The notes beneath the pieces were generated by a model that saw nothing but the letters and a program-made list of their open reading frames with translations, did no database searches and was not told the origin of the DNA. From an uncultured Bacteroidales bacterium (lineage in GTDB: Bacteria > Bacteroidota > Bacteroidia > Bacteroidales > UBA932), in NCBI GenBank assembly GCA_905234795.1, contig CAJOIQ010000008.1, positions 29,308 through 93,307 of the forward strand: a stretch of 64,000 nt of DNA, read 5' to 3'. Positions within the stretch are counted from its first letter, which is position 1. Each line of letters begins with the position of its first letter. Of this stretch, positions 3,370 to 35,703 are shown one piece after another. Made by a program: the position numbers and the translations under genes.

Positions 3370-3402
3370 AGAATGCCAGCCACGCGGCTGGCATTCTTTA
3401 TA
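3370..3402 (+). terminator. Rho-independent terminator after korC
   Basis: An 11-bp perfect stem, GAATGCCAGCC / GGCTGGCATTC, with an ACGC loop is followed by TTTATATA. It sits just after the korC stop codon and overlaps the stop of the converging helicase gene, so it may act in both directions. The T-rich tail is better on the plus strand. Confidence 0.9.
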
Positions 3403-5800
3403 TATGACGGAGTTTGGCGAACTTCAGAATCAGGAGTTTCTCCCCGTACTGGTCAAAGGCAATCTTGGCCTTGAGGTCCGGAACCTGACCGTAGATTTCC
3501 AGCACCTTACCGGCACCGAAGCGGTTGTGCTCGATGCGGTCCCCTACCTTGAAAGAGGTCATGGGTTCCGGCACAAAGTTGGGGTCTATCACTGCCGGCT
3601 TCTCCGGTATTACTGTACGTTTCACCGGCTCACTTGCAGGGCCAGAGGAGGGAACAGATTTCCCGTCACTAAAATGAGGGCCGATGTTCCGGGAAATCTG
3701 TCCCCCCCTCCCGGCCATTCGACCGGCACCGGGGAAGGGTGAAAGGTTTGTTTTCCCTTCCCAGGTGACGGAAAAACCGTCAGCTTCCCATGGCTCAAAG
3801 GACTCTTTGCGTAAGGGTTTATCTAGGTACTGGGGGGCGAGTTCGCGGAGGAAGCGGCTGGGGCCGTTGGATTCGTGCTTGCCGTTGCGCATGCGCGTTT
3901 CGGCAAAGCTGAGGGAAACGGCCTTTTTGGCACGGGTGATGGCCACGTAGAACAGACGGCGTTCTTCCTCCAGATCCTGCGGAGTGAGCATCCAGCCGCC
4001 GGAGGGAAACAGATTCTCCTCCATGCCGGCCACGAATACATAGGGGAATTCCAGGCCCTTGGCGGTGTGTACGGTCATCAGGGCCACTTTGTTGTTGGTC
4101 TCGTCATCGGCCACGTCCACGTTGGAGAGCAGGGACACGTTCTCCAGATAGTCGGCCAGGGTGACCGTGGGTTTTTGGTCCACGGCGTCGGGGTCTACAT
4201 CGGCCTCCACGTCCTCCACGTATTCCTTGACGCTGTTCAGCAGTTCCTCCACGTTGGCAAAGCGGGACTGGCCTTCGATGGAGGTATCGGCCTTGTAAAA
4301 GAGGTACAGGCCGCTCTCCTGGGCCAGGGACATGGCTACGTCGTAGGCGTCTCCGTGCACGGCATCCTGCGCGGCCTTTTCCATGAAGGTGCAGAAAGCG
4401 CGGATTTTGCCGATGGCCGCTCCCTTGAGGCCATAGTCCTCCAGATTGGGCAGAGCCGCAGCTTTGAACAGGGAAACCATATTTTGCCTGGCGGCTTCTA
4501 AGAGAGCGTCCATGGAGGTGCCGCCTATACCGCGGGCGGGCTTGTTCACCACGCGCTTGAACGATTCATCGTCATTGAGATTCACCGCAAGCTTGAAATA
4601 GGCCATCATGTCCTTCACTTCCAGCCGTTCGAAGAAGGAATTGCCGGAGAAGATCATGTAGGGAATGTTGCGGCGGCGCAGCTGCTCTTCCAGCGCGCGG
4701 GATTGGGAATTAGTGCGGTACAGGATGGCAAAATCCTCATACTCACACTGTTCCGCGCGCATACGGGTGAGGATGGAAGAGGCTATCTGCATGGCTTCTT
4801 CCTGTTCCGTGAAAGTGCGCACCAGGTGGATCTTCTCCCCTTCCTCCCCCATGGACACGCAGTTCTTGGGGATGCGGCCTTCGTTGTGGGCGATGAGGGC
4901 GTTGGCGGCGTTCACGATGGTGGCCGTACTGCGGTAATTGCGTTCCAGGCGGAAGAGCCGGGCCGTGGGGAAATCCTTCTGAAAATTGAGAATATTCTGG
5001 ATTTGAGCGCCGCGGAAACCGTAAATGGATTGGGAATCGTCTCCCACCACACACAGGTTCTTGTGACCTGCCGCCAGCTTGCGCAGGATGAGGTACTGGG
5101 CCATGTTGGTATCCTGGTACTCATCCACCACGATATGGTCGAATCGGCCGGCGATATCGGCCAGGGCATCCTCCGACTTCTTGAGGAGGAGGTTCATGTA
5201 CAGGAGAATGTCATCAAAGTCCATCACCCCCGACTGCTGGCATTTCTGACAGTACAGCTGGTAGATGCGGTAGATTTCCGGCTTCTTGTGCGCATTGTCG
5301 GCCTCCCGGTATCCGCCGGCGCCGTTCATGTAGGGCGTGGGGGTGACGAGGTCGTTCTTGGCCTTGGAGATGCGGGAAAGCACTTCCTTGGGTTTGTACA
5401 GTTTGTCGTCCAGGTTGAGCTGGGCGATGCAGGCCTTGACGGCGCTCACGGAATCCGTGGTATCGTAGATGGTGAAGGTGGCGGGGAAGCCGATGACCCC
5501 GGCGTAATCCCGCAGGAAGCGGATGAAGACGGAGTGGAAGGTGCCCATCCACAGGCGGCGGGCCTTGCGCTCACCCACCATGAGGGCGATGCGTTCCTTC
5601 ATTTCTCCGGCGGCCTTTTTGGTAAAAGTCAGGGCCAGGATGCGCTCTGGGGGCACACCCTGCTCAATCAAATACGCTATCCGTGAGGTAAGTACACGGG
5701 TTTTGCCGGAACCGGCCCCCGCCACTATTAGCATGGGGCCTTGCGTACATGTTACTGCGGCTGATTGTTCCCCGTTCAGGGACGCCAGGATCTCACTCAT
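3398..5800 (-). CDS. pcrA: UvrD/PcrA-type superfamily 1 DNA helicase
   Basis: An 800-residue ATP-dependent 3'-5' DNA helicase for nucleotide excision and mismatch repair. All SF1A motifs are visible in order: Q motif LNGEQSAAVT, Walker A GAGSGKTRVLTSRIA, motif II DEYQDTN, motif III GDDSQSIYGFRGA, motif V MTVHTAKGLEF and motif VI VAITRAKK. The last 50 residues, FKVGDRIEHNRFGAGKVLEI and onward, are the Tudor-like C-terminal domain of PcrA. I start at the ATG at 5800 (MSEILASLNGEQ) rather than the track's 5872, whose extra 24 residues overlap the nqrA promoter region. Residues about 697-718, in the linker before the C-terminal domain, are encoded by a palindromic insertion described separately. 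Confidence 0.93.
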   Translation of the reverse strand: MSEILASLNGEQSAAVTCTQGPMLIVAGAGSGKTRVLTSRIAYLIEQGVPPERILALTFTKKAAGEMKERIALMVGERKARRLWMGTFHSVFIRFLRDYAGVIGFPATFTIYDTTDSVSAVKACIAQLNLDDKLYKPKEVLSRISKAKNDLVTPTPYMNGAGGYREADNAHKKPEIYRIYQLYCQKCQQSGVMDFDDILLYMNLLLKKSEDALADIAGRFDHIVVDEYQDTNMAQYLILRKLAAGHKNLCVVGDDSQSIYGFRGAQIQNILNFQKDFPTARLFRLERNYRSTATIVNAANALIAHNEGRIPKNCVSMGEEGEKIHLVRTFTEQEEAMQIASSILTRMRAEQCEYEDFAILYRTNSQSRALEEQLRRRNIPYMIFSGNSFFERLEVKDMMAYFKLAVNLNDDESFKRVVNKPARGIGGTSMDALLEAARQNMVSLFKAAALPNLEDYGLKGAAIGKIRAFCTFMEKAAQDAVHGDAYDVAMSLAQESGLYLFYKADTSIEGQSRFANVEELLNSVKEYVEDVEADVDPDAVDQKPTVTLADYLENVSLLSNVDVADDETNNKVALMTVHTAKGLEFPYVFVAGMEENLFPSGGWMLTPQDLEEERRLFYVAITRAKKAVSLSFAETRMRNGKHESNGPSRFLRELAPQYLDKPLRKESFEPWEADGFSVTWEGKTNLSPFPGAGRMAGRGGQISRNIGPHFSDGKSVPSSGPASEPVKRTVIPEKPAVIDPNFVPEPMTSFKVGDRIEHNRFGAGKVLEIYGQVPDLKAKIAFDQYGEKLLILKFAKLRHI
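3647..3711 (-). repeat. In-frame palindromic insertion element in the helicase gene
   Basis: Two self-complementary arms, about GGAGGGAACAGATTTCCCG on the left and CGGGAAATCTGTCCCC on the right, flank a core containing ACTAAAATGAGGGCCGATGT. Within a 28-base alignment this core agrees with the two rfbD elements at about 21 positions, including the block GGCCGATG. The arms are unrelated to the rfbD arms. The element lies in the poorly conserved linker of the helicase and keeps the reading frame open. Confidence 0.65.
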
Positions 5801-5842
5801 ATCTACCCTCAAATTTATATGCGAAAATAGCGATTTTTTTCG

Positions 5843-5850
5843 TATCTTCG
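5843..5850 (+). promoter_or_regulatory. Possible -7 promoter element for the nqr operon
   Basis: TATCTTCG resembles the Bacteroidota -7 box TAnnTTTG and lies 38 bases before the nqrA start. No clear -33 TTTG is present at the right distance, so this is a weak call. The same octamer occurs at 57048 before another operon. Confidence 0.4.
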
Positions 5851-5852
5851 CC

Positions 5853-5872
5853 GTGTATTTCGGCAAATACAC
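5853..5872. promoter_or_regulatory. Perfect palindrome upstream of nqrA, candidate operator
   Basis: GTGTATTT, CGGC, AAATACAC is an 8-bp perfect inverted repeat with a 4-base spacer. It lies directly after the possible -7 element and 16 bases before the nqrA start, in the divergent region between the helicase and nqr genes. The position suits a repressor or redox-sensor site, or a 5' UTR hairpin. The binding protein is unknown. Confidence 0.4.
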
Positions 5873-34713: not shown

Positions 34714-35703
34714 TTACGGAAGCAGTTCTTCCAGGCACTTTTTGAGGGCGTCACGCCAGTGAGGAATGTTTATTCCCAACTCCCGTTTGATACGGGTTTT
34801 ATCCAGGACGGAATAGGCGGGCCGATGCACCTTGGAGGGGAATTCGTCGCTGCTGCACGGCTGGATGTTGCAGTTTATATGACCCGCATAACCGGCTATG
34901 GCACAAGCAAATTCGTACCACGTGCATTCCCCTTCATCGGTAAAATGGTAGATGTTGGCCGATGGCGTTCCCGCCGGGGAAGGACCCACCTCTTCGGTCG
35001 CGAATTTGATGGCCGATGCTCCCTCAGAGGTGGGGGTCCTTCCCCCGGCTAAAAGGCGCACAATCACATCGGCAAGATCGGCGGCAAAAGTGGGCGTGCC
35101 GCGCTGGTCGTCCACCACCTTGAGCGAGGGCTTTTCCGCAGTGAGGCGAAGCATGGTCTTGACGAAGTTCTTTCCGTAGGGGCTGTACAGCCAGGCCGTA
35201 CGGATGATGATGTGCCGGCAACCGACTCGTTGGATGGCCTGTTCTCCATGCAGTTTTGTAACGGCATACACGCCCTGCGGAGCCGGTTTCTGATCCTCCT
35301 TTATAGGCGAGTTAAGAGGCTCTGCACCAAATACATAGTCTGTTGAAATATGCACCAGCAGGCCGTTCACTTCCTTCATGGCCACCGCCAGATTTTCCAC
35401 AGCCTTGGCATTGAGCAGTTCGGCCAGTTCCGGCTGGTCCTCGGCCCCCTCCACATTGGTATATCCCGCACAGTTCACAATGGTATCTATCCCCTCCTTC
35501 CTCACCATCTCCCGTATAGCCTCCAAGTCCGTGATATCCAACTCGTTAAGATCAGTGAAAACCGCATCTGGCAGTAACGCCCCTTCGGTCGCTGATTTGA
35601 TGGCCGATGCTCCCTCAGGGGCGTCACTACCAGAAGCGTCTGCCCAGATGCTTCTGAGAGACATTCCAAGCTGCCCGTTGGCACCGGTTACCAGGACTTT
35701 CAT
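34714..35703 (-). CDS. rfbD: dTDP-4-dehydrorhamnose reductase, with two palindromic insertions
   Basis: A 329-residue RmlD/RfbD, which reduces dTDP-4-dehydro-L-rhamnose to dTDP-L-rhamnose with NAD(P)H. Seen are the Rossmann motif VTGANGQLGMSLR, the active-site pattern STDYVFGA and the YxxxK-like YAVTKLHGEQA, and the ending HRPAYSVLDKTRI. Two stretches interrupt the normal sequence: residues about 24-44 (EGASAIKSATEGALLP) and about 219-243 (SEGASAIKFATEEVGPSP). Both are coded by related palindromic elements lying in surface loops, so the protein is about 45 residues longer than usual and may still fold. It overlaps rfbC by 4 bases. rfbA and rfbB are not in the window. Confidence 0.93.
   Translation of the reverse strand: MKVLVTGANGQLGMSLRSIWADASGSDAPEGASAIKSATEGALLPDAVFTDLNELDITDLEAIREMVRKEGIDTIVNCAGYTNVEGAEDQPELAELLNAKAVENLAVAMKEVNGLLVHISTDYVFGAEPLNSPIKEDQKPAPQGVYAVTKLHGEQAIQRVGCRHIIIRTAWLYSPYGKNFVKTMLRLTAEKPSLKVVDDQRGTPTFAADLADVIVRLLAGGRTPTSEGASAIKFATEEVGPSPAGTPSANIYHFTDEGECTWYEFACAIAGYAGHINCNIQPCSSDEFPSKVHRPAYSVLDKTRIKRELGINIPHWRDALKKCLEELLP
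34973..35049 (-). repeat. In-frame palindromic insertion element in rfbD (distal copy)
   Basis: Arms GCCGGGGAAGGACCCACCTC and GAGGTGGGGGTCCTTCCCCC (complementary with two small indels) flank a 34-base core that includes TTCGGTCGCGAATTTGATGG. The core matches the other rfbD copy at 32 of 34 bases, while the arms are different. Confidence 0.85.
35570..35631 (-). repeat. In-frame palindromic insertion element in rfbD (proximal copy)
   Basis: Arms GGCAGTAACGCCCC and GGGGCGTCACTACC (12 of 14 positions complementary) flank a 34-base core that includes TTCGGTCGCTGATTTGATGG and GGCCGATGCTCCCTCA. It lies in a loop of the N-terminal Rossmann domain and keeps the frame open. Confidence 0.85.

Follow-up and report, generated by a model that had tools for sequence, protein, structure and literature searches.

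Why does the linker of a helicase gene carry a DNA palindrome whose core resembles those of two elements in a second gene, and why is it read there in another codon phase? This question arose from a 64,000-nucleotide stretch of an uncultured Bacteroidales genome (hereafter, the window), which holds one such element in uvrD and two in rfbD.

A hairpin family in uvrD, rfbD and beyond

The UvrD/PcrA helicase gene occupies positions 3398–5872 on the minus strand (Pfam), and its hairpin, given here on the plus strand, spans 3645–3710, within 2 bases of the 3647–3711 proposed in an earlier sequence-only reading. As that reading had described, two arms enclose a core: a copy-specific left arm of 20 nt (3645–3664), 18 of whose 20 positions pair with a right arm that is its reverse complement (3691–3710), and between them the loop GTCACTAAAATGAGGGCCGATGTTCC (3665–3690), which is conserved across the family. 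Within the arms, GGAACAGATTTCCCG lies at 3651–3665 and its complement at 3690–3704. By coordinates, the element encodes residues ~721–743 of the helicase, in the linker between the UvrD_C domain (308–658) and the PcrA_UvrD tudor domain (776–819) matched by Pfam; this linker is hypervariable among congeners.

The second host gene, rfbD (34714–35703, minus strand), encodes an RmlD-like dTDP-4-dehydrorhamnose reductase (Pfam PF04321, E = 3e-88) and contains two in-frame elements, matched on the plus strand by a covariance model at 34975–35045 (element 1; core 34997–35022) and 35566–35635 (element 2; core 35588–35613). The peptides that they insert are absent from ~24 aligned congeners, one of which (L269) has a different repeat family at the position of element 1. 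Compared by eye, GTCACTAAAATGAGGGCCGATGTTCC and the rfbD core GTCGCTGATTTGATGGCCGATGCTCC agree at 20 of 26 ungapped positions, close to the 21 of 28 first estimated, and the codon phase does differ, with rfbD reading ...GASAI... and uvrD reading ...RNIGPHF.... The resemblance exceeds chance level: the uvrD stretch alone finds copies in its own genome at E = 9e-8 and 2e-6, and chance is further ruled out by a core-pattern search with its control and by covariance-model matches, as follows.

The three window copies belong to a hairpin family of which the 2.29 Mb source genome has 60 copies or more, gathered through sequence searches and retrieved stretches. The core pattern GAKGGCCGATGYTCC, with at most 1 mismatch, matched the genome 42 times and the reversed control 0 times; a minority of the 42 are coincidental, falling in ordinary genes that have no arms there. 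A covariance model built from 28 own-genome copies returned 64 genome matches at E ≤ 0.1, a few weak ones of which may be false; it matched the uvrD element at 3643–3712 and scored the window copies, which are part of the model, at 77.6, 76.9 (rfbD element 2) and 66 bits (rfbD element 1). The 28 copies align gaplessly over 70 columns, comprising a left arm of ~20 nt, a 26-nt core with a consensus near GTCGCTRAAWTGATGGCCGATGCTCC, and the complementary right arm. Elements in the source genome often occur as opposite-orientation pairs at most ~130 bases apart (L024, L003, L018, L068, L069).

The same core is found in the uncultured Bacteroidia genome RUG12971 and in the water-buffalo reticulum Bacteroidales genome RGIG7856; at one RUG12971 locus (L040, 3340–3450, reverse strand) the left arm and core are tandemly repeated, head to tail, and at another locus (L038, 1190–1350, reverse strand) two elements are ~60 bases apart. 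Outside the family UBA932, 24 families of the order were sampled with a single genome apiece, and none yielded a core match. Four viral-contig matches to a looser core pattern lacked arms and were set aside as chance, and with them viral spread.

Congeners yielded further covariance-model matches, which form a sister family with a different, longer core, GTCGCTTCGCGACCCTGTACGGGCAAATGCTCC and variants. Elements measure ~66–80 nt overall, with a loop of 26 nt in the source genome and 33 nt in the sister family. A search of 400 congeneric genomes located the sister core in 38, with up to 20 copies in each (control, 0). A 72-nt long-core form with one extra hairpin (AACCGGGGTCCCCGGAAATTTCTAATTTTCGGGGTGGC) was seen at three loci (L261, L264, L265), and the 33-nt core may be an internal deletion of it. 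A third core type, GGGGGCTAAAAATAAGGTCGATGCCCCC, again with private arms, was observed in genome G319 (L257).

Across the family, the loop is near-invariant, whereas the ~20 bp stem is Watson–Crick paired within each copy and different from copy to copy. Mean core identity within a genome was 99.4%, 99.5% and 100% in three sister-core genomes, while same-genome arms agreed on average at 9–12 of 20 positions (about 50–60%; best pair, 18 of 20), and no two copies of one genome had identical arms in the sister-core genomes measured. An invariant loop framed by private, exactly matching stems suggests that this small mobile DNA is copied or maintained by an unusual route.

Occupied and empty sites

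Thirteen sites of the sister family are occupied in at least two species, giving 30 pairs that are not independent. At these sites the core differed at 3 of 990 positions (0.3%) and the flanks at 1637 of 15305 (10.7%), a comparison in which the mismatch-tolerant core pattern used to find the copies could favour conserved cores; among sister loci retrieved by their flanks alone, most of the occupied ones also had intact cores, the degenerate exceptions among the copies seen being L208, L337, L306 and L307. The loop was inverted in 9 of the 30 pairs. Arm changes included 19 two-sided Watson–Crick changes and 34 one-sided ones.

Several putative empty sites are consistent with one arm having been copied, in inverse, from host DNA. 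In the gene that we take from its sequence to be cysS (names for rsmH and miaA, below, were given in the same way), genome G204 reads ACAGAAGGGGAAACCCTTTCT-core-AGAAAGGGTTTCCCCTTCTGT where G313 and G208 have ACAGAAGGGGAAACCCTTTCTGT, and 21 nt at this putative empty site recur, exactly inverted, as the G204 right arm. One arm likewise looks native in an alanine/proline-rich gene (L111 vs L244 and L255, with the insertion placed by reading the aligned sequences), at L126 (vs L243) and at L112 (vs L258 and L259). The pattern recurs in rfbD element 2, near the N-terminus, whose left-arm side encodes LLPDA, similar to the native LLPSA of G028. In presumed rsmH the native-looking arm is on the opposite side, and in presumed miaA neither arm looks native beside G028 (L005 vs L317). 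A direct target-site duplication was not evident at the cysS, L126 or L112 sites. Throughout the family, arm length barely departs from ~20 nt, and the arms show a weak consensus with codon periodicity.

We favour the view, at a probability of roughly 0.6, that these are very small palindromic elements, non-autonomous and inserted in frame, which parallel the Rickettsia palindromic elements (RPEs) and have their stems rewritten when DNA is copied on a fold-back. Since some putative empty sites point to one native-looking arm, whereas the fixed arm length, the arm consensus and the foreign miaA arms point away from purely target-derived arms, we infer fold-back copying as the writer of the stem, with a first arm that could come from either target or donor. 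DNA synthesis on a folded-back strand, through snap-back or template switching, would use the first arm as template for the second, and the loop of the new copy, perhaps with the innermost stem bases, would come from another copy. Later rounds of hairpin-directed copying would alter both arms together and flip the loop, and tolerance of in-frame inserts in linkers, along with codon register, would decide which insertions survive.

A bolder version, to which we would give less than even odds, has the mobile element carrying only its loop, with the stem built at each insertion as an inverted duplicate of the target and the loop replaceable or flippable at old sites. If true, a shared core with a private stem in every copy would follow directly. 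The near-fixed length and weak consensus argue against arms that are arbitrary target DNA, and weakened that idea in its pure form.

The arms might instead travel as ordinary transposon ends that differ through age, with mismatch correction in the hairpin (quasi-palindrome conversion) keeping the stems paired and the one-arm empty sites representing excision footprints. The fixed arm length and weak consensus, the concerted two-arm changes at shared sites and the foreign miaA arms all suit this alternative, and excision could have left its footprint at the putative cysS empty site, the arm ends there being direct-repeat-like in a way that would permit slippage. Against it, cores are more than 99% identical while arms are ~45% different, and no arms are shared within a genome; transposon ends would therefore require that the cores, too, be held constant through selection or conversion, and we judge the alternative unlikely, though a serious competitor.

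Compatible with either account of the arms is movement of a REP-like element by a Y1/HUH (RAYT-type) transposase. Y1_Tnp-like genes were present in 10 of 10 core-bearing genomes and in 5 of 10 without the sister core (nominal p = 0.03, the genomes not being independent), but they also occur in several core-free genomes. None of 15 inspected Y1 genes was flanked by cores, an arrangement with which action in trans would still agree, and the elements lack the conserved stem or terminal tag of GTAG/CGTC REPs (PMC3733652). Such a transposase is a lead, and in our estimate a doubtful one. The analysis turned up no mobilising enzyme, and no autonomous copy was seen among those right-end copies of core-rich genomes that lay beyond the core-pattern matches, all of which were without an internal gene.

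Stem pairing and codon register

Of the stem cells in the 28-copy alignment, 80.7% were paired; shuffling lowered this to 55%, and sliding the arms to 51% or less; stem covariation was 0.70 versus 0.24, and both sides changed at 19 of 20 pairs. Mismatches showed no preference for wobble. On the given strand, sister-core stems comprised 1754 Watson–Crick, 30 G·T and 50 A·C combinations, and stems around the source-genome core 617, 12 and 34, respectively, so each stem has the look of an exact copy undergoing mutational decay. That G·T is no commoner than A·C argues against selection on RNA structure, under which G·U pairs would be expected to persist, and so against a structured RNA element maintained in each mRNA through compensatory mutation. 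Such an element would fit the strong covariation, the conservation of the core at shared sites and a compensatory change in the inner core hairpin of sister-core variants (GTCGC/GCGAC to GTTGC/GCAAC), but it sits poorly with a core that can face either way within one and the same gene (9 of 30 pairs). A known RNA family was rejected, as the long-core copy had no Rfam match at E ≤ 10. We therefore consider an RNA explanation improbable.

Most copies lie in frame, in a single preferred register for each orientation. An ORF of 150 aa or more runs across all but 4 of 150 copies, 51 of which were frame-ambiguous. Practically every one of the six frames is open through the sister core, yet it was read in one register per orientation in 58 of 64 unambiguous host genes (p about 4e-21 against open frames), as was the source-genome core type in 29 of 31 (p about 2e-8); these p values are nominal, since each gene was defined as the longest ORF across the element and a site present in several species counts repeatedly. 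A register preference despite open frames indicates that host proteins also filter the insertions. The sequence-only reading had argued from the two frames of uvrD and rfbD that selection acts on the element and not on one peptide. Its conclusion gains from the conserved DNA core at shared sites and the use of both orientations, while its argument from frames is right only in part, frames not being free and the uvrD register being one of the few exceptions. That the inserted peptide itself is selected as a functional linker, with DNA similarity secondary, is hardly credible: the register preference and the Ala/Ser/Glu/Pro-rich peptides would suit it, but the peptides of one orientation are unrelated to those of the other, the uvrD register is a third one, and base pairing of the arms has no peptide-level reason.

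Pfam domains are intact in the insert-bearing host proteins, which may remain functional. Short repeats here rewrite the linkers of housekeeping proteins, namely UvrD, RfbD and the presumed CysS, RsmH and MiaA.

Other palindromic repeats share these locations. In-frame palindromic repeats of another kind (GTCATTTCGASCGGAGCCGAAGGC...GAGAAATCTC), encoding peptides such as SCHPERSEG and VIQSEAKDL, were seen in congeners (L269, L197, L201, L216), and in rfbD of genome G027 they occupy the same two places as the source-genome elements. A further, GCCCGGTCAGGCCGGGCATGAC-like palindromic repeat lies in the same gene linkers of sister genomes (L219, 1727–1767, reverse strand; L238; L330).

Comparison with known systems

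Our search of the open-access literature returned no earlier description of this element; one may exist elsewhere. RPEs were described in 2000, and the way in which such protein-coding palindromes spread has since been an open question. Within one species-rich genus, many copies here combine near-identical cores with private stems, orthologous sites occur both filled and putatively empty, loops are inverted and the two arms of a stem change in concert; this makes the mechanism of insertion and maintenance readable by comparative genomics, and testable. In RPE families a consensus typically covers the palindrome in full; in the present family the copies have just the loop in common and each stem is private, with same-genome arms ~50–60% identical.

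Among known kinds, the protein-coding palindromic elements of Rickettsia and the tagged REPs come nearest. Like RPEs and the Wolbachia WPEs, whose mobility mechanism is unknown, the present elements are short palindromes inserted in frame in conserved protein genes and absent from relatives, but they belong to another phylum and measure ~66–80 nt, as opposed to the 105–146 bp described for RPEs (PMC2229807). GTAG- and CGTC-tagged REPs, including dRS3 and RPE-4/RPE-6, are likewise short hairpins, some of them intragenic and some reported inside palindromes; both kinds bear a terminal tetranucleotide tag, and the CGTC repeats, with stems of 8–9 bp, similarly have no known transposase (PMC3733652). 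Our elements differ in that the loop is invariant and its stem, ~20 bp long, is private to each copy, with CGTC only internal to the element. Since the loop is the shared part and the stems are private, membership of the RPE or REP families is unsupported. The repeats that flank Y1 transposase genes in RAYT–REP systems have no counterpart at the 15 loci inspected, and the elements depart from MITEs in that their termini differ in every copy and that no direct duplication was evident at the three sites named above.

There are also mechanistic parallels. In the mitochondria of Nematomorpha, coding inverted repeats are kept perfect, and template-switching repeat conversion has been proposed (PMC6649704); those repeats are not known to share a core, whereas a dispersed invariant loop marks each copy here. 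At breaks in yeast, inverted duplications of 5–34 bp arise by fold-back synthesis with microhomology (PMC11724301): these are repair events without a mobile core, but they proceed by the very mechanism that we infer for the stems of this family.
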